Notes under the pieces: generated by a model
Databases searched by the model: none
Seen by the model: only the letters and a program-made list of their open reading frames with translations
Told to the model about the DNA's origin: nothing
DNA from: a virus
Length of the DNA: 36,487 bases
Direction: 5' to 3' (one strand)
Virus record (IMG/VR): IMGVR_UViG_3300046680_000838
Span: 1 to 36,487 of that record
Shown here: positions 3,353 through 36,487 of the stretch, one piece after another
How the letters are laid out: the number at the start of each line of letters is the position of its first letter
Position numbering within the stretch: position 1 is the stretch's first letter
Translations under genes and position numbers: made by a program

Positions 3353-4189
3353 ATGGATTTTTTGTATCTTATAGGATCAGTTCCAGATGTCGTTTGGTCT
3401 GGCTTGTTAGCATCAGCTTTGACGCTTGGAGGCGTTCTAATATCCAACTGGAGCAATACCTCAAGGCTGGAGTTGCAACTACGGCATGATTCGAATATGA
3501 AAACTCAAGAGCGAACAGCGTCGCTCAGAAAAGAGGTCTACCTGGATGCGGCAAAAAAAATGCCTGCGGCGTTGAGTTCGCTAATTAATTTTTCCGATAG
3601 GGAAGAGTCCATGATAGTGAGCCCTGATCTGAGCGATTTTTTCTCCACTGCAGCGCAGATTCAACTTGTGGCGGAGCCTATGACGGCGTCATTGGTCCGT
3701 GAGCTCGTGTCAAAATACAGCGACCTCATGAAGAAATCTTCTTTCACCAGAGAAGGGCTCGGTAAAGCGATCAGTGATAGAAACAAATTGGAAAAAAAGC
3801 GTGACAATTCACGTTTAGAGTCTGAGCGACTGTTAATGGAAATCAATAAGTTGAAGGGGATATCTTCTTCAGATTCGATATTGGTTGGAGCTGTTACTGA
3901 ATCGTATAAGCTTCACATTGTCGAGGCAGAAAAAGCCGAGCTGGAACTGTCCGATGCCGAGGTAAAAATAGCAATTGAGAGATTTCGTTTGCTTAAGAGT
4001 TTGCTGCCAGATGTTAAGGAAATTTCGGAGTTTCAGAATGTTGTTCTTGTAGGCATCCGCAAGGATCTGGGCTTGACGTCGAATGTTAAACTAATGGAGC
4101 TTCAAGTGAAAAGAGACTTGGCTGCTATTGAACATCTAATTAAGTTTTTGGGTGAGATAATAGAAAAACATCATAGCAATAATGATTAA
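3353..4189 (+). CDS. Hypothetical membrane-anchored coiled-coil protein (278 aa)
   Basis: Not recognised. Residues 10-31 (VPDVVWSGLLASALTLGGVLIS) form one hydrophobic segment, so the protein is likely a signal-anchored inner-membrane protein. The remainder is helical with a long charged coiled-coil stretch at about residues 140-185 (SDRNKLEKKRDNSRLESERL). It is AT-rich compared with the phage structural genes, lies just after int on the same strand, and has no structural-gene counterpart in P2. That pattern is typical of a lysogenic-conversion (moron) gene, with superinfection exclusion or host defence as plausible but unproven roles. Confidence 0.7.
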   Translation: MDFLYLIGSVPDVVWSGLLASALTLGGVLISNWSNTSRLELQLRHDSNMKTQERTASLRKEVYLDAAKKMPAALSSLINFSDREESMIVSPDLSDFFSTAAQIQLVAEPMTASLVRELVSKYSDLMKKSSFTREGLGKAISDRNKLEKKRDNSRLESERLLMEINKLKGISSSDSILVGAVTESYKLHIVEAEKAELELSDAEVKIAIERFRLLKSLLPDVKEISEFQNVVLVGIRKDLGLTSNVKLMELQVKRDLAAIEHLIKFLGEIIEKHHSNND

Positions 4190-4203
4190 GACTGAGAATG
4201 AAT

Positions 4204-4411
4204 GAGGCCGAATACGCGGCCTCGGCGGGCTTCCATCCTGCAGGATTCTGTTGCCAAGCGACGATTGCAGATTCCCGCCAGCCAACCCGACCTGGTGAAA
4301 TTGATGCCGGGCGAGGGAAACGCCCGCTCTTCATTGCCCGCAACAGCGTTGCGCGCGACAGGGATGTAACAGCGATAACATCCCGTTCCCTTATAAAACG
4401 ATCCAGCTGAC
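4204..4411 (-). pseudogene. Decayed alpA copy
   Basis: The minus strand reads DRFIRERDVIAVTSLSRATLLRAMKSGRFPRPASISPGRVGWRESAIVAWQ in one uninterrupted frame, closely matching the intact AlpA at 5358-5561. However, the GTG start of the good copy is TGG here, an in-frame TAG lies shortly upstream with no start between, and the stop codon is lost so the frame runs into unrelated sequence. The only remaining start is an internal TTG before RAMKSG, which would drop most of the helix-turn-helix. The hairpin at its end (GAGGCCG/CGGCCTC, 4204-4223) survives without a good T tract. Confidence 0.75.
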
Positions 4412-4481
4412 TCCAATACGGACGCTCACGACATCTCTATCTTCGGATGGGAGCGAGAATAATGAAATGCATATTTAGCAT

Positions 4482-5237
4482 TTAGCAGTTTAGCTGCCTA
4501 CGCCCGAACTGCACGAATGCGCGATAATGGTCCCAGCACTGATCTGCAAGGTCGTTCAGTTCTTTTAGTTTGTCGTCCACATGCTCTGGCCAGTCATCAG
4601 TCCCACGATATTGGTCTGGGATGCAACTATAAATCTCGCTATGAAGATTATAGGCGCCCAGTGACAGTTTGTAATCGAATTGAGCACAGGCCTGCCAAAG
4701 CTTTTTTCGCTTATCCTCCAGTTCTTCGTTGAGGAATTCTCGCTCCAGCGTGTTCCAATCTGCAACGAATTCTTCCAGCTCCTTGAGGTTTTTCATATTA
4801 AATGCGCTGCCCCAATCATGAGTTTTCAGCATATGGATAGATGAAGAGCTACTCGGGAATTCAGCCAGAAACTTCTCGAAAAGGGCTTTATCTATCGGAT
4901 TAATATTTTCGAGGGCGGGTTCCTGTATTGTTTTTTCTTTGAATAGTAAAAACCTGTACGCTATGTTATGGGCAAGCCCTGCAACTACAATCCATGCGCC
5001 AATCATGTAGTCTGCAGAGTCAGGTTTAAGATCTGCAAGTGTAAATTTTCCTGCTGAGTTTAAATTTGCTGTATCTATTATCCAGTTGTAAAAAATCACT
5101 TTCAGTGGGGTTGGTGTTAAAAGTATTGTTGCTCCAGCCCCCACAACAAGCCATGTAACTTTATTTGTGAAGTCAGGAAATAAATATTTGGTCCCGTATT
5201 CTTTAACTAAATCTTTTATTTCCTGTTTCTTAAACAC
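4482..5237 (-). CDS. Hypothetical two-TM membrane protein (251 aa), cargo
   Basis: Not recognised. Two hydrophobic segments are visible: about residues 28-52 (TWLVVGAGATILLTPTPLKVIFYNW) and 77-100 (MIGAWIVVAGLAHNIAYRFLLF). The C-terminal 150 residues are soluble, acidic and rich in W, E and L. The start is GTG with GGAG about 10 bases upstream. The gene is AT-rich and lies exactly between the decayed and intact alpA copies, so it looks like a cargo cassette brought in by recombination between alpA-like sequences. Membrane protein plus cytoplasmic domain fits an exclusion or abortive-infection effector, which is inference only. Confidence 0.7.
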   Translation of the reverse strand: MFKKQEIKDLVKEYGTKYLFPDFTNKVTWLVVGAGATILLTPTPLKVIFYNWIIDTANLNSAGKFTLADLKPDSADYMIGAWIVVAGLAHNIAYRFLLFKEKTIQEPALENINPIDKALFEKFLAEFPSSSSSIHMLKTHDWGSAFNMKNLKELEEFVADWNTLEREFLNEELEDKRKKLWQACAQFDYKLSLGAYNLHSEIYSCIPDQYRGTDDWPEHVDDKLKELNDLADQCWDHYRAFVQFGRRQLNC

Positions 5238-5340
5238 TGCAATTCGCTCCGTAAATTGAAAAAAGGTCTAAAGGAGATGCAACTATCAGGGTGTCAGGTC
5301 GCATATTGCCATACAGGGCTGTGCGGCAGGTTATGCTTAT

Positions 5341-5368
5341 AGAAATAAAAAGGCCGCTTAAGCGGCCT
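5341..5368 (-). terminator. Rho-independent terminator after alpA
   Basis: On the minus strand AGGCCGC-TTAA-GCGGCCT is followed by TTTTTATTT. The alpA stop codon TAA lies in the loop. It should end the leftward early transcript and insulate the cargo gene beyond it. Confidence 0.85.
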
Positions 5369-5561
5369 CGGTGGGCTTCCATTCAGCAGGATTCTGCTGC
5401 CAAGCGACGATTGCAGACTCTCGCCAGCCAACTCGGCCAGGTGAAATAGAGACCGGGCGTGGGAATCGCCCACTTTTCATTGCTCTCCACAGCGTTGCGT
5501 GTGACAGAGACGTCACGGCGATAACATCCCGCTCCCTCATGAAACGATCTAGCTTACTCAC
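5358..5561 (-). CDS. alpA: AlpA-family phage transcriptional regulator
   Basis: 67-residue single-domain MerR-like helix-turn-helix protein. Residues 13-30 (DVIAVTSLSHATLWRAMK) are the HTH and SGRFPRPVSISPGRVGWRESAIVAW is the classic AlpA signature with the wing. In E. coli cryptic elements AlpA activates integrase expression and promotes excision; here it is the last gene of the early operon and lies near int, which fits an excision-control or Cox-like role. The start is GTG. A diverged decayed duplicate is found at 4204-4411 across the cargo gene. Confidence 0.85.
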   Translation of the reverse strand: MSKLDRFMRERDVIAVTSLSHATLWRAMKSGRFPRPVSISPGRVGWRESAIVAWQQNPAEWKPTEAA

Positions 5562-5598
5562 TTTCCACTGTCTCCCCAGCAGCTCTTTTCGCGGATCT

Positions 5599-5736
5599 TT
5601 AACTCAGGATCCAAATGAGCAGATCCGGCACCTGGACCGCAACAATGGCGATCAACGCCGCCGTCACGATCGCGCCAATGAATTGCCGAAGCATGGCCCC
5701 GCGCTCAGTCTGTTCAAGTTGTTCTGTGTTGCGCAT
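5599..5736 (-). CDS. Small membrane protein (45 aa)
   Basis: Reads MRNTEQLEQTERGAMLRQ followed by one hydrophobic helix (FIGAIVTAALIAIVAVQVPDLLIWIL) and a short tail. AGGAG sits about 7 bases before the ATG, the same leader design (GAAAGGAGAGAAC) as the next gene upstream, which supports translation. Function unknown; single-TM mini-proteins in the early operons of temperate phages can be exclusion factors, but there is no direct evidence here. Confidence 0.65.
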   Translation of the reverse strand: MRNTEQLEQTERGAMLRQFIGAIVTAALIAIVAVQVPDLLIWILS

Positions 5737-5773
5737 AGTTCTCTCCTTTCAAAAGTGCCGGTTGCAGCCGGCG

Positions 5774-6070
5774 TTACAGGTTGCTGTCTGGCAGTCGCAC
5801 CAGGTGCAGCACCAGGTCTTCAAATTCGTTCGTGTCTTCGGTGCATGAACGCCATTCCAAAACCGCCTGGATCTGGAGCCTTGAACAATTCAGCACCAGG
5901 ATCTCGTGCTGACCGTCTGTGGCCCGCACCTCCAAAATATCGACCAGGCCGTTGGCGCCGTATGCCTCGGCCTGCACCGTTTTGCGGTGATCGTTTCCGA
6001 GCTCGTTGAGCAGGTGGGTGGTGCGGTCCTGCAGGATTTTCGCAGTGCCGGCAACGACTTGAATTTGCAT
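5774..6070 (-). CDS. Hypothetical early protein (98 aa)
   Basis: Not recognised. Acidic, soluble, mixed alpha/beta pattern beginning MQIQVVAGTAKILQDRTTHLLNELGND, with no TM segment. AGGAGAG stands just ahead of the ATG. It lies 40 bases after the primase stop in the early operon, and the next gene downstream (5599-5736) shares the same ribosome-site sequence. Probably an accessory replication or host-takeover protein; function not assignable. Confidence 0.65.
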   Translation of the reverse strand: MQIQVVAGTAKILQDRTTHLLNELGNDHRKTVQAEAYGANGLVDILEVRATDGQHEILVLNCSRLQIQAVLEWRSCTEDTNEFEDLVLHLVRLPDSNL

Positions 6071-6110: not shown

Positions 6111-8921
6111 CTACGCCTGGAACATCCAGCACTTGACGGTGGGTGACTTGGTAATCGTGTTGTTATTCCGCGTGGCCTGATACGCACGCACCGCGCTGTC
6201 GACGGCTTTGTTCGATTCCAGGAATTTGCGGCAGCGGGATTCCTTCAGGCGATCGCGCAGCTCGCTGACGTCGGCGAGCTTCTGCCGGTGTTCTGCAGCT
6301 CGCTCGACGAACTCGTTGAGGTTGATGGCGATGACGTTGTCTTTTTTGCTGTGATTGACCACAGGCCCATCGGCATCGAGACCTTGCAGGTAGTCGTAGA
6401 CTTCCCAAAATTCAGCTACGACCGGATGGTCTGCGCTGATTGAGCTCTGGCGCTCGATCGCCATTGCGATGATGCAGCGATGGGTGGCGCTGATCTGGGT
6501 ATCGCTCAGGGGTACAAGCGAGCGAATGCAGTCGACCAGGCCTAGCAGCTGAGCATGGTTTTTAACGATGCGCTCGACGCGGATATAGCCTCTCAGCTGA
6601 TTGCCACATTGTTGGCACGCGGCCTTTTCGTTGGTGGCTGGGTATTCGGTGTCGCAGCTGATGCAGTGAGTGTGCAGCCGACGCAGGCGAGCCTCGTGAG
6701 CTGGAATTTTGTCGGCAAGCGTTGCCATGACGTCGGCTTCACGCTTCACCGCCTGCAGCAGGAAGTGGCTAAGCTGATTACCGTCCAGGGCCGTCAGTCG
6801 GTCAGCCGCGGCTCGGCTTTCTGGCGTCACGTTTGGCCGCACGAAGTGCAGCTTTACAATCCGCGTCATGATGGCTTCGGAAGCAATCACTGGCGCGTTT
6901 TGGCTAATGGCGATCGTCCCTCGGAAGGGTGGCTCGTAGGTTTCGTTGCCGGAGGTTTTAACGCCCTTTGTTGCCAGAGTGCCGCCGCCGAAGTAGTCCT
7001 TCAGTTCGTCCCACTCGAAGTTTTTCGCGTGGGATTTGTCGTCTCCGCTCCGATCGGACTCCAGCAGCACCACTGGCATGCCGGACACTTGCCCCATCAG
7101 CCGGCTACGCCCGGCCTTGGTAGACTTCGATGGGTCAAATCCCTCGTAGCTTGCACGGCCGAGCAATTTCCACAGCAATTTGAGCAGGGTGGTTTTTCCT
7201 GCGCCGGCTTCGCCCGTGGCTTCCAGGAAGGGGAACGACTCATATCTAGAGCGGATCTGCTCGGCAAACAGCGAGCCGAACCAGAAGGTCAGCGCGACAA
7301 CGCCCTGGGCACCGAAACACGTCCACAGCAATTTCGCCCATTCGTTGCTGTATTCCTTCGGATCACGCTGAATTCGCACCGGCACAGCGCGCTGCAGGGT
7401 TTTCAGTCGCAGCTTGCCGAACTCGAAGAATTCCTCGTCATTGACCTCGACCACCTGGCCATCTTTGATGGCCACGTCGCCGTACACGTAGCAGCCGTAT
7501 TCCTTGCTGTACCCGACGAAGTCGATCGTCTGAACCGTTTTGATCGCGAACAGCTGGTCCTTCATGATTTTGTCCAGCTGCTGGCCACTGCCGGTGAAAA
7601 CCGCTCCGGCGGCCATGCCGAGCAGACGTTTCTTGAATTCGCTCGCAGCGGCTACCTGACCACCGGTGAAGGTGTTTTTTACCGAACCGCCGTCGTGCGG
7701 AAAATCAACACGGAAGAAATACCAGGACTCGTCAGTGATCTCATTGCGCTGGAAGTACAGTGCCTGGGGGTAGCAGTTCGCGATCTCGACCACACAGCCC
7801 GACATGCGCAGTGCTTTCTCACGCATGGCTTTGCTGTTCAGCTGCTGCTCTTCGTGGTTTTCGCTCGTTTCCAGGGCCTGCATGGCGTTGTTGAATTTGC
7901 TGATGTCCAGCTTCCACCAATAAAGGCGCGACTCAAACCCGAAGTGGAATTCCTCGCGCTCGCGCCAGTTGTACATCAGCAGCGCTTTTTCTGACGCGCT
8001 CTCGGCGATAAGTAGGGCACCGTGGTGGCGGGCTTCGTCGAGGTCCTTTTCGGTGCGCTGGCGGCGATCGGCTTCATCACTGATAAAGGCCCAACGCTGA
8101 TGCAGGTCGTTCCAGTCCACTTTTCGCACATCGCGTTGTGGAATCTGAGCGGCAGTGCATTCAAAGCCCAAAGCCCGGGCCATCGCGACCCATTTGCGCG
8201 TGTACCGGTGCGCGCCAGGCTCGTTGTCCAGTGCCCACACCAGTCTCGGCAAATTACCTGCTCGATCAGCGGCAAGTGCTTTCAGTGAGGCCTCAGGAAA
8301 GGCATTCGACGACATCGCGGCAACAGCATCGATCGCGTTGTGCTCGAGAGCGATCGCATCAAAAATGCCTTCGACGATCCACAGCTCTTCGGTCTGGGAA
8401 AGATCGATGTTAGGCGAACACCACCAGTAGCCTTTGTACGACTCTCCGGGTTTGAAACGGGCTTTCTTTTTCCCGAAGCGCTGAGGCTGGTCGATCAATC
8501 GCTCCCAATACCCACCGTGCTCGAGCGGAAATCGGACTGTGGCCGAACCGATATTCAGGACGCGATCGAAATAGTTTTCCTGGGTGAACAGTCCTGCGAC
8601 CAGCTCGATCTTGAATCCGCGAGCAAATTCCATATAGGCGCGGGCGCTTGCGGTCGGTTGATCATCTGTCGCCGGCGCACGTTTGCTCCAGTCGTCGAAC
8701 AGATCGGCATACAGCTCTTTGACATGCCATTGCTGACCGCATTTGCTCTCGCGACCGCACTTGATGAACCACGGGTTTTCGAAGCTGGAATACAGTTCCT
8801 TCTTGTTGCAGGCAGGGCAGGTGCCACCGCGCATAAAGTCGGTGCCCGCGCGGTGCCGCAAGCCGTAGTCGAATTCGAGTCGGGTCAGTATGTCGCCCCG
8901 GATTTGCTTTTCCATCTTCAC
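6111..8921 (-). CDS. Bifunctional TOPRIM primase / helicase replication protein
   Basis: 936-residue replication protein expected to prime and unwind DNA at the phage origin. Domains in order: N-terminal zinc finger with cysteines near 35, 38, 56 and 61 (CPAC...KCGRESKCG); TOPRIM domain about 178-275 with VEG at 183-185 and ALDNE at 230-234; a middle linker domain; a helicase-like ATPase with Walker A GEAGAGKTT at about 570-578 and Walker B-like VVLLESD at 617-623. A second zinc ribbon has cysteines at 753, 756, 769 and 772, then a C-terminal domain follows. The GTG start overlaps the upstream stop by four bases (GTGA). It takes the place of the P2 rolling-circle gene A, so replication mode probably differs from P2. 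Confidence 0.9.
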   Translation of the reverse strand: MKMEKQIRGDILTRLEFDYGLRHRAGTDFMRGGTCPACNKKELYSSFENPWFIKCGRESKCGQQWHVKELYADLFDDWSKRAPATDDQPTASARAYMEFARGFKIELVAGLFTQENYFDRVLNIGSATVRFPLEHGGYWERLIDQPQRFGKKKARFKPGESYKGYWWCSPNIDLSQTEELWIVEGIFDAIALEHNAIDAVAAMSSNAFPEASLKALAADRAGNLPRLVWALDNEPGAHRYTRKWVAMARALGFECTAAQIPQRDVRKVDWNDLHQRWAFISDEADRRQRTEKDLDEARHHGALLIAESASEKALLMYNWREREEFHFGFESRLYWWKLDISKFNNAMQALETSENHEEQQLNSKAMREKALRMSGCVVEIANCYPQALYFQRNEITDESWYFFRVDFPHDGGSVKNTFTGGQVAAASEFKKRLLGMAAGAVFTGSGQQLDKIMKDQLFAIKTVQTIDFVGYSKEYGCYVYGDVAIKDGQVVEVNDEEFFEFGKLRLKTLQRAVPVRIQRDPKEYSNEWAKLLWTCFGAQGVVALTFWFGSLFAEQIRSRYESFPFLEATGEAGAGKTTLLKLLWKLLGRASYEGFDPSKSTKAGRSRLMGQVSGMPVVLLESDRSGDDKSHAKNFEWDELKDYFGGGTLATKGVKTSGNETYEPPFRGTIAISQNAPVIASEAIMTRIVKLHFVRPNVTPESRAAADRLTALDGNQLSHFLLQAVKREADVMATLADKIPAHEARLRRLHTHCISCDTEYPATNEKAACQQCGNQLRGYIRVERIVKNHAQLLGLVDCIRSLVPLSDTQISATHRCIIAMAIERQSSISADHPVVAEFWEVYDYLQGLDADGPVVNHSKKDNVIAINLNEFVERAAEHRQKLADVSELRDRLKESRCRKFLESNKAVDSAVRAYQATRNNNTITKSPTVKCWMFQA

Positions 8922-29656: not shown

Positions 29657-31417
29657 ATGACAACAACCGACGCCACTCCCATCCGCGATAACCGCCGTCA
29701 GGCCAAGTTCCTCTACTGGACCGGTCTGCGGATCTGCGCGATTGCAGAAATGCTGGATGAAAAGGAAAAGACCGTTCATGCGTGGAAAACGCGTGATGAA
29801 TGGGATAGGGCCGATAACGTCGAGCGCATAGGCGGTGCCCTGGAAGCGCGCCTGGTGCAACTGATCCTTAAGGACGGTAAGACCGGTGGTGATTTCAAGG
29901 AAATTGACCTGCTGCACCGTCAGTTGGAACGGCAGGCCCGGATCGAGCGGTACAAGGCCGGCGGTACCGACACCGACCTCAACCCGAACCTGGCCAAACG
30001 CAACGAAGGTCCGAAGAAGAAAGCGGCTCGAAACGAGTTCAGTGAAGAGCAGATTGAGCAACTGACCGAGGCGTTCAAAGACGGCTGCTTTGGCTATCAG
30101 TTGGACTGGTACCGAGCGAGCAATCAGCGCACCAGGGCAATTCTGAAAAGCCGGCAGATCGGCGCCACCTACTACTTTGCCCGAGAGGCGTTCATTGATG
30201 CCCTGGTCACCGGACGCAATCAGATTTTCCTGTCAGCGTCGAAGAACCAGGCACACATATTCAAGGCATACATTCAAGGCTTCGCCCGCGAGGTGTGCGG
30301 TGTTGAGCTCACCGGTGACCCGATCATTCTGGCCAATGGCGCCGAGCTGCATTTCCTTGGTACCAACGCCCGAACCGCTCAGGGTTACCACGGTAATTTT
30401 TACTTCGACGAATTCTTCTGGACGTTCAAGTTTAACGAGCTGAACAAGGTCGCCAGCGGCATGGCGATGCAGAAGCAATACCGCCGCACCTACTTCTCGA
30501 CACCATCGAGCATGGCGCATGAGGCCTACACATTCTGGACCGGCGAGCGATTCAACAAGGGCAAGCCGGTGGCGCAGCGGCTGAAACTCGACGTTTCGCA
30601 CGACGCGCTGCAGCAGGGCCGGCTGTGCGAGGACCGGATCTGGCGCCAGATCGTCACGATCCTTGATGCCGAGCAGCGCGGCTGTGATCTGTTCGACCTG
30701 GAGGAGCTGCGCCTTGAGTACAACGCGGACGCCTTCGCGAACTTGCTCATGTGCCAGTTCGTCGACGACGGGGCGAGTATCTTCCCGCTCAACGTCCTGC
30801 AGCCTTGCATGGTCGACAGTTGGGTCGAGTGGTCCGAGGACTACAAACCTTTTGCTGCAAGGCCGTTTGCCGATCGGCAGGTTTGGATTGGCTATGACCC
30901 AGCGGAAACAGGCGACAGCTCCGGTCTGGTGGTCGTGGCCCCGCCAACTGTTCCAGGTGGAAAATTCCGCGTGCTCGAGCGCCACCAGTTCCGCGGTATG
31001 GACTTCGCCGCGCAGGCCGAGGCGATCCGCTTGGTCACGATGCGCTACTGGGTGACGTACATCGGAATCGACATCACGGGCATGGGCTCTGGCGTCGCCC
31101 AGCTGGTGCGCCAATTTTTCCCCAACGTGACGACCTTCAGCTATTCCCCCGAGGTCAAGACGCGGCTGGTGCTCAAGGCCTACGACGTTATTCACAAAGG
31201 ACGCTTGGAGTTCGACGCCGGCTGGATCGACATGGCCCAGTCGCTCATGGCGATTCGCAAAACCATCACGGCCAGTGGCCGGCAGTTCACTTACACGGCA
31301 GGCCGCACCGACGAGACCGGACATGCGGATCTCGCATGGGCGCTTTTCCACGCATTACAGAACGAACCGCTTGAGGGGCAAACCTCAACGAATACCGGTT
31401 TCATGGAGATTTATTGA
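29657..31417 (+). CDS. P: Large terminase ATPase GpP
   Basis: 586 residues. N-terminal helix-turn-helix at about 15-45 (RQAKFLYWTGLRICAIAEMLDEKEKTVHAWKTRDEWD). ATPase with variant Walker A ILKSRQIGATYYFAREAF and Walker B FYFDEFFW. C-terminal nuclease-like domain with VWIGYDPAETGDSSGLVVVAPP. It drives DNA into the prohead with M. It runs opposite to the rest of the head genes, as in P2. Confidence 0.95.
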   Translation: MTTTDATPIRDNRRQAKFLYWTGLRICAIAEMLDEKEKTVHAWKTRDEWDRADNVERIGGALEARLVQLILKDGKTGGDFKEIDLLHRQLERQARIERYKAGGTDTDLNPNLAKRNEGPKKKAARNEFSEEQIEQLTEAFKDGCFGYQLDWYRASNQRTRAILKSRQIGATYYFAREAFIDALVTGRNQIFLSASKNQAHIFKAYIQGFAREVCGVELTGDPIILANGAELHFLGTNARTAQGYHGNFYFDEFFWTFKFNELNKVASGMAMQKQYRRTYFSTPSSMAHEAYTFWTGERFNKGKPVAQRLKLDVSHDALQQGRLCEDRIWRQIVTILDAEQRGCDLFDLEELRLEYNADAFANLLMCQFVDDGASIFPLNVLQPCMVDSWVEWSEDYKPFAARPFADRQVWIGYDPAETGDSSGLVVVAPPTVPGGKFRVLERHQFRGMDFAAQAEAIRLVTMRYWVTYIGIDITGMGSGVAQLVRQFFPNVTTFSYSPEVKTRLVLKAYDVIHKGRLEFDAGWIDMAQSLMAIRKTITASGRQFTYTAGRTDETGHADLAWALFHALQNEPLEGQTSTNTGFMEIY

Positions 31418-32469
31418 TGAGCAAGCGCCGTAGCAGGACCCAGCAGTTGACCGCTTCTGCCCAACCCGTGATCGAGGGGGAGCTACTGCCGGCAGCGGGC
31501 GGCAAGATGGAGGCCTTCACCTTCGGAGACCCCACTCCAGTGCTTGATGAACGGGGGATTCTCGACTACCTGGAGTGCTGGCTGAACGGTCGGTGGTACG
31601 AGCCGCCGATGTCCCTTGACGGGTTGGCCAAGTCTTCCCGGGCCAGCGTGTTTCTGCAGTCGGGCCTGAACTTCAAACGCAACATGCTGGCTCGCACCTT
31701 CATTCCGCACAAGTTACTCTCACGTCAGACCTTCGAGCAATTCGCCCTGGATTTCCTCTGGTGCGGCAACGGTTATTTGGAAAAGCGGGAAAACATGCTG
31801 CGCAGCACGTTGGGCCTGCAGCCCGCCCTGGGCAAGTACATGCGACGCGGTGTGGACCTTGAAACCTATTACCAGGTTCGCGGCTGGCGAGATGAGCACG
31901 AATTCAAGCGAGGGACCGTTTACCACCAGCGCGAGGCGGACATTAACCAAGAAATCTACGGCCTGCCGGAGTGGCTGCCAGCACTGCAGAGTGCGCTGCT
32001 CAACGAGTCCGCCACCTTGTTCCGGCGCAAGTACTACAACAACGGGAGTCACGCCGGTTTCATCATGTACATGACCGACACCGCGCAGAACGAGACGGAC
32101 GTTGCCGCGTTGCGTAGCGCGCTGAAGTCCGCCAAAGGGCCAGGGAATTTCCGGAACCTGTTCATGTACGCCCCGGGAGGCAAGAAGGACGGCATTCAGT
32201 TGATTCCCGTCAGTGAGGTCGCGGCGAAAGATGAATTCGGCTCGATCAAGAATATCAGCCGCGACGACATGCTCGCAGCGCTACGCATTCCCCCTCAGTT
32301 GATGGGCATCGTGCCGCAAAACGCAGGCGGTTTCGGCTCGATTAAAGAGGCCGCGCAGATCTGGGCAATGAACGAGCTCGAGCCGATCCAGGCACGTTTG
32401 CAGCAGGTCAATGAATGGTTGGGGGAAGAGGTAATTCGCTGGAAACCACTGGAGCCAGGCCCGGACTAA
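31414..32469 (+). CDS. Q: Portal protein GpQ
   Basis: 351 residues, P2 portal: PTPVLDERGILDYLECWLNGRWYEPPMSLDGLAKSSRASVFLQSGLNFKRNMLARTFIPHKLLSRQTF and IPPQLMGIVPQNAGGFGSIKEAAQIWAMNELEPIQARLQQVNEWLG. Forms the dodecameric portal ring at the head vertex. Start overlaps the P stop (ATGA); ends with a double stop TAATAA. Confidence 0.95.
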   Translation: MMSKRRSRTQQLTASAQPVIEGELLPAAGGKMEAFTFGDPTPVLDERGILDYLECWLNGRWYEPPMSLDGLAKSSRASVFLQSGLNFKRNMLARTFIPHKLLSRQTFEQFALDFLWCGNGYLEKRENMLRSTLGLQPALGKYMRRGVDLETYYQVRGWRDEHEFKRGTVYHQREADINQEIYGLPEWLPALQSALLNESATLFRRKYYNNGSHAGFIMYMTDTAQNETDVAALRSALKSAKGPGNFRNLFMYAPGGKKDGIQLIPVSEVAAKDEFGSIKNISRDDMLAALRIPPQLMGIVPQNAGGFGSIKEAAQIWAMNELEPIQARLQQVNEWLGEEVIRWKPLEPGPD

Positions 32470-32822: not shown

Positions 32823-33938
32823 ATGGCGGATCCAAAGACTAGGGACATTAAACGAGTACCACTTAAGGATTTGAACTTTGACCCTCATAACCCCAGGTTC
32901 GCCCGTTATTTCGCTGATGGTGAGCAGCCTGTAGAGCAAGTCATTGATCGAATGATCAAGGCTGAAAATGTCCAGGAGCTCATGGGCTCTATTGGCGAAC
33001 AAGGGTATTTTTCCGGTGAGCCTTTGTTGGTAGCCAAAGTTTCGGGAAAATTGTACGTTGTGGAAGGCAATAGGCGTTTAGCTGCACTAAAGCTGCTTGC
33101 CGGAATTATCATTCCTGAAAACCTGCTTCCATCCATCGAGGCCTTGAAAAGTGAGGCCAAAGAGATACCTACTGAGGTCGAATGCATAATCTTTGAAGCT
33201 CGTGAAGATATCCTTAGGTATTTGGGGTACCGACATATTACAGGCCCAAAACGATGGGACTCTTTGTCGAAAGCTAGATATCTGAAACAGCTAAAAGATA
33301 CTTTTTATAATGGTCTGCCAGAGGATGAGCAGTTAAGGGCTATAGCCAAAGAAATTGGCAGTCGTAAGGATTATGTAGCCCAGATGCTTACCGGTTTAGC
33401 GGTATTTGACAGGGCGAGCGAAAAAGATTTTTACGGACTTCAGCGCGTTAAGGCAAATGACGTTGATTTTAGCGTTTTAACTACCGCGCTCTCATACAGC
33501 AATATTTCAAAGTTCCTAGGGCTGGAAAGTCGAACAGACATAACTGCAGCGAACCTCGATGACACTGCCTCTCATGACCTTTTTTCATGGATGTTCGCGC
33601 AGGATCAACAGGGCGATACAATCCTTGGCGAGTCGCGCAACCTTCGCAAACTTTCAGCGGTAGTGGCGAATGATGTTTCACGCGATGTCCTCAGAAGAGA
33701 TAAGAATCTTGCTGTCGCCTACTTGCACACAGAAGGCCCGTCAAACGCATTTACTAAAACTGTTGATGCATCTTTAAAAAAGCTAAACGAGGCGTACGCT
33801 CTTGTTCCAACAGTTGATAGTTTTTCTGAGGAAAATAGAGCGGCTTTAAATAAAATAACGACTTTGTCAGAAGACTTAGTGGGTATGATTACCAGGGCGT
33901 TGAGAAAGCAAAAAATGGAGCGGGATTCTGATGACTGA
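32823..33938 (+). CDS. ParB-domain protein with HTH (cargo module)
   Basis: 371 residues. The N-terminal ParB/Sulfiredoxin-like domain is at about 10-95, with NPRFARYF and the signature VVEGNRRLAALKLL at 79-92. A ParB-like helix-turn-helix follows at about 171-190 (LRAIAKEIGSRKDYVAQML). The C-terminal half is helical and not recognised. ParB-type domains bind and hydrolyse CTP or act as nucleases in partition and several defence proteins. No ParA gene is adjacent, so plasmid-style partition is unlikely. AT-rich and overlapping the next gene by eight bases, it forms a translationally coupled pair. Confidence 0.8.
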   Translation: MADPKTRDIKRVPLKDLNFDPHNPRFARYFADGEQPVEQVIDRMIKAENVQELMGSIGEQGYFSGEPLLVAKVSGKLYVVEGNRRLAALKLLAGIIIPENLLPSIEALKSEAKEIPTEVECIIFEAREDILRYLGYRHITGPKRWDSLSKARYLKQLKDTFYNGLPEDEQLRAIAKEIGSRKDYVAQMLTGLAVFDRASEKDFYGLQRVKANDVDFSVLTTALSYSNISKFLGLESRTDITAANLDDTASHDLFSWMFAQDQQGDTILGESRNLRKLSAVVANDVSRDVLRRDKNLAVAYLHTEGPSNAFTKTVDASLKKLNEAYALVPTVDSFSEENRAALNKITTLSEDLVGMITRALRKQKMERDSDD

Positions 33939-34935
33939 TCTTTTTCAGAAGTTAGATATTCCACCTAAAGATGCAAAAGGCTTTCTCTGGACTGATTACG
34001 TTGAGTTGAGGTGTTTAACTAGTCTCGACGGATTATACGGTGAAGGTCAGGTGGTGGACCTTGAAACCGAGTCGGACGAACTTATGGTTGACGAGGAAGC
34101 TGATAATGACGATTTTTTTGAGGGTGAAGATGAACCAGTTGATGTAGCTGGGGAGTTCCTTAAAAATAATGAAGCTGTAGCACGAAAGTGGGCTGACATT
34201 AGCGCTAGATTAAGTTCTCGTAAAATTTCGATGGAAGGTTATTGGCCCTTCGATATCCGTGAAGGGATTTTATACCGGAAGTTTGATGTCGCTAATCGGC
34301 GGCACGTCCTCTATGTCGCGTTGTTGGTAGCATCTGCATTGCGGTATTGCGTGAAAACACGTCAGAGTGAGGTGACTGCGAGCTTGGAAGAAATTGGCTT
34401 TCACCTTTTCAAGTCGTTGATGCCTTCTGGATGGCAGGTGCGGCCATTTGGTGCTCATCAAAATATTGCGGATGGATTCACAGGTACGTTGGGACAGAAG
34501 TTTGCCAGCCTCGCAGCGGAAGTGTATCCAAGATATGTGAGGCCAGAAAATCAGTTCGCTCCGAGTAATACTGGTGACGGTGGTTTAGATATTGTAGCTT
34601 GGCACTCGCTAGGGGACGCCACTAGAGGCCATATTCCGGTCGCATTTGCTCAGTGCGGATGTTCCCCTGGAGATTGGGAGCACAAACAGTTTGAAGGCTC
34701 CCCTGCAAATATGGATCAGAAAATTAGCCTGCAACATCCAGCGTCTAATTTTTATATCATGCCTCATGATATGCGAAGTTTGACAGGAGGTTGGGAGCGA
34801 GGCGATCACATCGGAACGGTAATATTACTCGACCGAGTTAGGATTATCCGGTTAGTAGAGCAGTATGCTTTGCCGGATACATTTCCCATTTGGCCGTTCG
34901 TGCAGGAAGCTGCTCAACTCAGGTTAGCAATTTAG
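33931..34935 (+). CDS. Putative restriction-endonuclease-like protein (334 aa)
   Basis: Not identified with a named family. Residues 42-72 are a highly acidic linker (ETESDELMVDEEADNDDFFEGEDE). The second half holds GDGGLDIVAW at 215-224 and VAFAQCGC at 237-244, about 20 residues apart. GDGG(I/L)D followed by a hydrophobic strand ending in Q/E-x-K/C is the layout of PD-(D/E)xK endonucleases such as Mrr-like enzymes; here the third position reads QC rather than QxK, so the active site is non-canonical and the call is inference. The neighbouring methyltransferase supports a restriction role. Its stop overlaps that of the convergent methyltransferase gene by four bases. Confidence 0.65.
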   Translation: MTDLFQKLDIPPKDAKGFLWTDYVELRCLTSLDGLYGEGQVVDLETESDELMVDEEADNDDFFEGEDEPVDVAGEFLKNNEAVARKWADISARLSSRKISMEGYWPFDIREGILYRKFDVANRRHVLYVALLVASALRYCVKTRQSEVTASLEEIGFHLFKSLMPSGWQVRPFGAHQNIADGFTGTLGQKFASLAAEVYPRYVRPENQFAPSNTGDGGLDIVAWHSLGDATRGHIPVAFAQCGCSPGDWEHKQFEGSPANMDQKISLQHPASNFYIMPHDMRSLTGGWERGDHIGTVILLDRVRIIRLVEQYALPDTFPIWPFVQEAAQLRLAI

Positions 34936-35873
34936 GTCCAGATGTCTGGCAGAGCTCTCGCCACTGCTTCGAATAGCGGTGGCGGAACTGCATTCCCGAC
35001 CACTGTGTATCGCATATTAAGGGAGGCAGTCTTCGTGTCGGGGAAAATCAGATCGCCAAATCCTTGTAGTCTTGCTGCTTCGCGATAACTGAATCGACGC
35101 GCAGCACCATCGTGCTCAAACTTCCAAACATTATGTTCAAGCTTCACCATTGGTGGGCTCATTGGATGAAGGGGCATATGGCGGGGGTTCGCTACAATCG
35201 TTCTGGACTGCTGTTCCCATGCGTTTCTGCGATCGCGGGATAGGTAATACCAGTGGAAAGGCAAATCATAGAACTCGCCCGCAGGCCACTCTGGCATATC
35301 GCCGATTGCGTCGCGCATCGTTACGCCAGCATGTAGTTTGTCTTCACCATGAGTCGCTTCTGGAAAAGCATATTTAATGCCGAAGTCTTTACGAATTCCA
35401 ACGATAAAGATTCTTTTGCGTTCCTGAGCTACGCCGTATTCCGCAGCGTTTAAGATCTCTGCGCTGACTTCATAACCCGCTTCTGTAAAAACCTTGAATT
35501 GGTCCTCCAAAAGGTGGCGAAAGTTTTTTCGGAACATTCCAGACACATTTTCTACAATAAAAGCCTTTGGTTTTATCTGCCGTAATGCCCTAGCAAATTC
35601 GAGGTAGAGAGTGTTGATTTTACGGTCGGGATTACGTTGTCCGCCTTGACTAAACCCTTGGCACGGATAGCAACCAACGAGCAGCTCCGCATTAGGGAAG
35701 TTTTCAATCGTGGTGACGCTTCCCCGAATATAATCAGTTTCGGGATGGTTCGCTAAGTAGACATCGCGAGCGTAATGCATGACGTCATTGGCCATCAATA
35801 CGTCAAACCCAGCTCGCAGAATACCTGCGTCTGAACCCCCACAACCTGAAAACAAAGATACAGCTGATGGCAT
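34932..35873 (-). CDS. DNA cytosine-5 methyltransferase
   Basis: 313 residues with the full set of C5-methylase motifs: I, VSLFSGCGGSDAGILRAGF (5-23, AdoMet site); IV, CYPCQGFS (68-75, nucleophile Cys71); VI, FIVENV (105-110); VIII, QERKRIFIVG (150-159); IX, RRFSYREAARLQGF (259-272); X, YTVVGNAVPPPL (289-300). The target-recognition region between VIII and IX is short, about 100 residues; the recognised sequence cannot be read from it. No degeneration is seen, so it should be active. GAGGGG lies 8 bases before the ATG. It probably protects self DNA from the convergent neighbour. Confidence 0.93.
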   Translation of the reverse strand: MPSAVSLFSGCGGSDAGILRAGFDVLMANDVMHYARDVYLANHPETDYIRGSVTTIENFPNAELLVGCYPCQGFSQGGQRNPDRKINTLYLEFARALRQIKPKAFIVENVSGMFRKNFRHLLEDQFKVFTEAGYEVSAEILNAAEYGVAQERKRIFIVGIRKDFGIKYAFPEATHGEDKLHAGVTMRDAIGDMPEWPAGEFYDLPFHWYYLSRDRRNAWEQQSRTIVANPRHMPLHPMSPPMVKLEHNVWKFEHDGAARRFSYREAARLQGFGDLIFPDTKTASLNMRYTVVGNAVPPPLFEAVARALPDIWT

Positions 35874-36061: not shown

Positions 36062-36487
36062 TCATTGGCCTTGAATCGGGGCGACTTTCTTGAACACCCA
36101 GCACTTGGTGGTGGTTTTCCGAATAATGCTGTCTACCGCCTTCATCCCCAAAAACTGAGGTTCCTTGCAGCGTTTAAGTGCGTTGGTGACGTCGGTGCCG
36201 ATGATGGACTGAATGCCATTGGCAGCGAACAGTTCGACCAGGTGCTGCATGTTCAGGGCGATCAGTTGCGAGTCCTTGGAGTGGTTATAGATGATGCCCT
36301 TGGTCTCCAGCTGCAGGAGCGCGCCCCAGAAGTCTGCGACCACGTCAGCTTGTGGCGGCTCGACGGTTCCGATGGCGTCCAGCTCGGGGACGGGCAGGCC
36401 CATAGCTTTGGAGAGGTTTTTGATCTCGACGCCAAGCAGATCCCGCATCGACCGATTGCGGCTGCGCATCAACTCTTTCAGCAACAC
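36062..36487 (-). CDS. Second primase-like protein, C-terminal part (cut by window edge)
   Basis: At least 141 residues, open to the right edge. The C-terminus (NHSKDSQLIALNMQHLVELFAANGIQ...FLGMKAVDSIIRKTTTKCWVFKK) aligns with the end of the primase-helicase at 6111-8921 (NHSKKDNVIAINLNEFVERAAEHRQ...FLESNKAVDSAVRAYQ...VKCWMF). The two are clearly related but diverged, so this is not a recent duplication. It shows a second replication module of the same family on the same strand just right of the cargo. The domains with catalytic residues, if present, lie outside the window. Confidence 0.8.
   Translation of the reverse strand: MLLKELMRSRNRSMRDLLGVEIKNLSKAMGLPVPELDAIGTVEPPQADVVADFWGALLQLETKGIIYNHSKDSQLIALNMQHLVELFAANGIQSIIGTDVTNALKRCKEPQFLGMKAVDSIIRKTTTKCWVFKKVAPIQGQ

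Follow-up and report, generated by a model that had tools for sequence, protein, structure and literature searches.

The IMG/VR virus record IMGVR_UViG_3300046680_000838, a P2-like prophage analysed here over its whole length of 36,487 bases (the window), carries near its end a three-gene cassette that, on balance, probably encodes an immunity system of the restriction-modification (RM) type. Two of its products, a ParB-fold protein (A) and a nuclease-like protein (B), would act together as one two-protein, probably NTP-gated restriction effector, and the third, a C5-cytosine methyltransferase (C5-MTase; M), would mark self. The genes themselves have long been sequenced (coliphage Wphi; PHROG families 3694 and 3984); the system is undescribed. 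PADLOC, Pfam and NCBIfam yielded no named system that combines A, B and M, keyword searches of surveys on BREX, Dnd and ParB-fold proteins (PMC12839542, PMC10853773, PMC12704722) met no description of it, and the literature searched, excluding subscription papers, preprints and supplements, gave no name for it. To that extent the earlier sequence-only reading of this DNA, which knew of no named defence system with these genes, stands.

Gene A (32823-33938, + strand, an ORF of 371 aa) is followed by gene B (33931-34935, + strand, 334 aa), the first 8 nt of which overlap gene A; gene M (34932-35873, - strand, 313 aa) lies tail-to-tail with B, with a 4 nt overlap. GC content falls from ~0.60 before the cassette to 0.44-0.49 across it. 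Outside the module, the portal gene Q (31414-32469, + strand; phrog_68 portal, 2e-152) forms the hotspot boundary, and the terminase large subunit gene (29657-31417) stands one gene before the portal; this upstream order places the cassette in the P2 defence hotspot, home of tin, old and further defence genes (PMC9519451). The three ORFs, the AT-rich character of the cassette and its position at the tin/old site had been described in the sequence-only reading, and all were recovered here. No shared operator or parS-like inverted repeat common to close relatives was found 5' of A, and promoter and terminator scans returned chance level only. Elsewhere in the window, an AT-rich stretch between integrase and primase (3353-6009) holds three ORFs (3353-4189, +; 4482-5237, -; 5371-6009, +) with no Pfam match and at most a marginal PHROG one (7e-4), and is possibly a second cargo site. 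At the record end, a - strand ORF (36062-36487) shows similarity to the C-terminal region of the phage primase family phrog_1139 and phrog_20645; the full primase gene is found at 6111-8921, and the terminal ORF is possibly a leftover primase copy or a small relative.

Protein A belongs to PHROG 3694 (6e-102) and is predicted to consist of a ParB-fold NTP-binding domain (residues ~8-145, with an EGNRR box-II motif at 81-85), an HTH region (residues ~146-200) and a helical C-terminus. By sequence alone its likeness to ParB is weak, and phmmer of A, as of B, against the PDB gave no usable match; a profile built from 115 A homologues matches ParB structures with an E-value of 8e-5. The AF2 model (pLDDT 94) resembles KorB (Z 10.7) and Noc (Z 10.2) over ~199 residues, and its Foldseek match to ParB/KorB/Noc (E 1e-5) spans both the nucleotide domain and the HTH region. 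Residues E66, G82, N83, R85, H138, G141, W145 and K150 are invariant in the 115 homologues, among which the EGNRR motif is invariant or nearly so. A thus combines the ParB N-terminal fold with the box-II nucleotide motif, as expected of a ParB-type CTPase, and the "ParB plus HTH" description of the sequence-only reading agrees with the model. A ParABS partition protein was considered and rejected: the canonical ParB model TIGR00180 scores 23.6 bits against a cut-off of 58, and the cassette has no ParA.

Protein B had been called nuclease-like and described by a GDGGLD...AQC signature, which is indeed present and strongly conserved. The putative catalytic core (34564-34689, + strand; residues 212-253) reads G-D216-G-G-L-D220 ... 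F-A-Q241-C ... W-x-x-K252; D220 and Q241 are found in 114 of 114 homologues, D216 in 108 (with E in 5) and K252 in 112. PHROGs of no assigned function (phrog_3984, 3e-52) are its only database matches, with none in Pfam, NCBIfam or PADLOC. In the AF2 model (pLDDT 93) an N-terminal helical domain precedes a domain of the PD-(D/E)xK nuclease fold (model residues ~120-314), and a Foldseek search with this model found the predicted nuclease fold: the top match is MspJI (E 7e-3, probability 0.98-0.99; VIA-align Z 7.3), followed mostly by other PD-(D/E)xK enzymes (FokI, Nt.BspD6I, NgoMIV, EcoT38I, NucC and Can2). Since the structural Z is below 8, the evidence for this fold is moderate, and so is the strength at which the superfamily core is recognised in the predicted structure. 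Independently of the model, the B profile has MspJI as its sole PDB match, at the MspJI catalytic motif (E 0.17), where the B core aligns with RSSGDGGVDFIG...LGQAKC. MspJI, the nearest solved fold and catalytic motif to B, requires 5-methylcytosine and has an SRA-like reader domain; it also has a QAK motif, whereas in B the Lys position of QxK is occupied by G, A or T (Q241-C-G/A) and no reader domain was recognised. The catalytic Lys must therefore be K252, a residue that may have migrated into that role, or B may be inactive. We consider B a PD-(D/E)xK nuclease on moderate evidence, and it would cleave DNA.

The product of gene M is a complete C5-cytosine DNA methyltransferase, as had been proposed. 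PF00145 covers residues 5-308 (1.2e-62), the catalytic domain with PCQ and ENV motifs is accompanied by a target-recognition region, and the alignment with M.HaeIII extends end to end (residues 4-308, 4e-50), target-recognition region included. From this similarity the site of M is predicted to contain GGCC. DruM-like models also match M, at 1e-110; an assignment of the cassette to Druantia type II was rejected, since no Dru component was matched by A, by B or by the gene that follows.

The cassette also occurs outside this record. Coliphage Wphi has it at the same site (genes gp98, gp96 and mth), the laboratory strain E. coli W, a Wphi lysogen, carries the Wphi cassette intact at the P2 hotspot, and the cassette also occupies that site in a second P2-type record and in vB_EcoM-12474III; in Pseudomonas phage D14A it lies beside a tail gene. 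Among complete E. coli genomes it is present in 139 of 5426 (2.6%), 103 with the Wphi allele and 36 with the 12474III allele, under the PGAP labels "ParB N-terminal domain-containing protein", "hypothetical protein" and "DNA cytosine methyltransferase". The hotspot location, the Wphi cassette and this frequency in E. coli are counted as points for the RM-like reading. For a putative anti-phage role, the pointers are the hotspot location and the genes present. Searches of viral contigs yielded 80 loci with A; in almost all of them B follows immediately and a C5-MTase is present. In genome contigs 508 stretches were confirmed, of which the 80 best belong to Pseudomonadota, Bacteroidota, Actinomycetota, Chloroflexota, Bacillota, Verrucomicrobiota and others; these loci came from the A alignment, a single-sequence B query of the genome contigs having returned nothing. 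Phylum-wide, counting the seed genome, the B profile was detected in 10 of 395 genomes in the phylum of a Bacteroidetes locus, 5 of 398 in that of Pseudomonas, 2 of 396 in that of Gordonia and 1 of 199 in that of Clostridium. In the genus Methylomonas, only 3 of 37 genomes have B; a tentative lead there is the C5-MTase of Methylomonas sp. DH-1 that modifies TGGCCA and raises transformation efficiency (PMC7720504). The sequence-only reading, which treated the cassette as a single phage module, was in this sense too narrow, since it is scattered over many bacterial phyla. Its recurrence in ~100 non-redundant loci argues that the A-B-M arrangement is not due to chance.

The gene neighbourhood was evaluated for a non-redundant set of 107 A-B loci flanked by 1.3 kb or more on both sides, partners being sought within 1.5 kb. 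A or B, and in no case M, served as the query, so that M was not selected for in the set. Bulk assignment of the partners relied on phmmer and profile matches, which makes the counts approximate; the types were confirmed on examples with Pfam/PADLOC. A modification gene lies beside A-B in 99 loci: a C5-MTase in 87, an N6/N4-MTase in 8 (D12-class or N6_N4_Mtase in the Pfam examples) and dnd phosphorothioation genes in 4 (dndC, dndD and dndE directly upstream of A-B in the Pfam examples). A methyltransferase beside a nuclease gene, as in type II RM systems, is thus the usual state in these unrelated genomes, and a methylase-free majority was not seen. In one further locus, which encodes a NaeI-like enzyme, a C5-MTase lies at a distance of 1.8 kb, and no modification gene was recognised within 1.5 kb in the remaining 7. 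Type II-like restriction-enzyme genes (NaeI-like, NotI-like, HNH_2 and REase_II) occur in 7 A-B loci as well, so that A-B is not the sole restriction component everywhere; most loci have no other recognised nuclease gene next to A-B-M, which leaves A-B as the sole candidate restriction component there. In three dnd loci of Bacteroidota/Ignavibacteria type (L179, L183 and L185), A-B comes right after dndE, either overlapping it or separated by 9-19 nt, and the few kb read around these loci showed no DndFGH. In a Vibrio locus, a large HerA-type gene flanks one side of an HNH gene and A-B, and dndD/dndC/dndB, in convergent orientation, flank the other. Two side observations concern these surroundings: in L183 (4363-5961) and L179 (293-1891) DndE is fused to a HerA/FtsK-type ATPase, and a gut phage contig (4986-9864) has two divergent A-B pairs facing each other, with no methyltransferase found.

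Throughout the phylum-wide sample, wherever the contig permits the test, A is directly upstream of B; the ParB-like protein is therefore the obligatory partner that the sequence-only reading had suspected. The methylase, which that reading took as a defining part, proved exchangeable: A-B is the conserved core, and its partner is swapped for N6/N4-MTases or dnd genes. Divergence follows the same division. A and B identities correlate across 87 loci (r = 0.89), and pairwise identities indicate that M does not follow them: between Wphi and 12474III, M is 98% identical, A 33% and B 27%, and several further pairs combine M above 90% with A near 30% and B near 21%. Either A-B was exchanged beside a standing M, or M was exchanged by recombination. 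If A-B had to read precisely the M site, one would not expect near-identical M proteins to go with A-B pairs of only ~30%/25% identity. Disrupted copies are scarce. In one MAG locus A-B is intact and M broken; three E. coli IS insertions were found (IS5 in B twice, IS1 in A once), and their absence from M, with a chance of ~0.3, comes from too few cases to show that M is protected. These disruptions in B and A fit the RM-like reading, but are few.

Under this RM-like reading, M would methylate cytosines of host and prophage DNA. A and B, whose genes are inseparable, overlap in the window and diverge together, would form a single effector, in which A, as a ParB/KorB-type DNA-binding NTPase, may load on or scan DNA; the CTP-dependent loading proposed in the sequence-only reading is likewise putative. 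The NTP state of A would decide whether B cuts, as suggested by its fold, by its intact EGNRR motif and by the DndI, SspE and GmrSD precedents. B would then cut unmodified invading DNA, and the modification laid on self DNA by the partner enzyme may reset or block the A-B complex. The closest experimentally known mechanism is, by analogy, that of DndI, in which a ParB-like ATPase domain detects phosphorothioate and, hydrolysing ATP, departs from self DNA; unmodified DNA is nicked (PMC11662687).

Several known systems share parts of this arrangement, and by sequence comparison the putative RM-like system with a ParB-NTPase-gated nuclease belongs to none of them. DndI, SspE and GmrSD/BrxU also couple a ParB-superfamily NTPase to a nuclease; of these, DndI and SspE work alongside a DNA modification (PMC11662687). 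They are of DUF262 type with a His-Me finger (HNH) nuclease, mostly in a single chain, whereas the cassette has a KorB/Noc-type ParB with HTH, a separate PD-(D/E)xK protein and mostly C5-MTases; GmrSD_N scores 16.2 bits against a cut-off of 33.2, and identity with these DUF262 plus DUF1524 HNH systems was rejected. PD-lambda-5, an E. coli prophage defence described as compacted RM and Abi (Vassallo 2022, PMC9519451), starts with the ParB-like domain of A (PD-Lambda-5_A; hhalign 98%, residues ~10-165), but this protein of 430-590 aa has an unrelated C-terminal part and no separate PD-(D/E)xK partner; the match is limited to A residues 9-160, B shows no similarity to PD-Lambda-5_A, and the two were not equated. 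In one locus (L220, 5427-11048), two ParB-headed systems adjoin: a cassette of D12-methyltransferase, A and B is the direct neighbour of genes for a full-length PD-Lambda-5_A and an HNH_2 nuclease. The PADLOC candidate PDC-M38 holds in PDC-M38A the full A-like region (residues 8-360), fused, as read from one of its sequences, to an ABC/OLD-like ATPase and without a separate B; A stops where the fusion starts (8-363 of 715 aa), and this identity was likewise rejected. Such fusions (loci L234-L237) suggest that A may be a reusable front end for different effectors.

Among other explanations, a guard or suicide function is unlikely, yet deserves to be taken seriously, because A-B also stands beside apparently self-sufficient type II enzymes and in a dnd island. 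A-B would monitor the neighbouring modification system and destroy DNA, cellular or invading, upon loss or inhibition of modification, like PrrC guarding EcoprrI. Its neighbours do include NaeI-like and NotI-like systems and a dnd locus with a DndH-like HerA protein, it accepts partners of differing chemistry, and PD-lambda-5, with its common ParB domain, carries the compacted RM and Abi description cited above. The fold of B is, however, of DNase type, not that of an RNase or toxin, and most loci offer no second recognised nuclease gene beside A-B-M. We regard as distinctly improbable an ordinary type II RM system, in which B on its own would cleave specifically at the M site and A would be a DNA-binding regulator of the operon. 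A classical system with an M.HaeIII-like methylase would share the C5-MTase, the predicted GGCC-containing site and the adjoining nuclease gene, B resembles MspJI/FokI-type catalytic domains and A has an HTH region; here, however, the nuclease is obligatorily paired with a ParB-fold protein and the MTase is exchangeable. Unlike an optional controller, A is never apart from B and diverges with it, which makes this explanation less likely; moreover, A-B partners differ in chemistry, 27%-identical B proteins accompany a 98%-identical M, and the HTH segment of A is near-constant across C5-MTase and dnd loci. That M is a protective anti-restriction phage methyltransferase and A-B unrelated cargo, e.g., for partition or exclusion, is hardly credible: phages often carry orphan MTases and ParB-like proteins partition plasmids, but the cassette has neither ParA nor a canonical ParB, and the co-occurrence of A-B with modification genes, found across many phyla without M as query, argues against it.

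Within the RM-like reading, we tentatively put forward a further step, which is possible rather than probable: A-B may be a modification-agnostic effector able to recognise self by 5-methylcytosine, by N6/N4-methylated bases or by phosphorothioate, the mark being swappable and the cutter constant. The GSRxDYV segment of the A HTH is near-constant between C5-MTase and dnd loci, and recognition by A is therefore not simply set by the chemistry of the mark; the segment is different in the loci with N6/N4-MTases and in a small number of divergent C5 loci.

If the RM-like reading is true, the cassette would represent a widespread, unnamed class of restriction system, in which an NTP clamp of the chromosome-segregation type controls a restriction nuclease. 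C5- and N6/N4-methylation and phosphorothioation would be linked via one common effector, and the family would offer a direct test of how restriction enzymes come to know self when their cognate methylase is not fixed. The exchangeable mark, if right, would mean more than RM-like immunity with a ParB-NTPase-gated nuclease.
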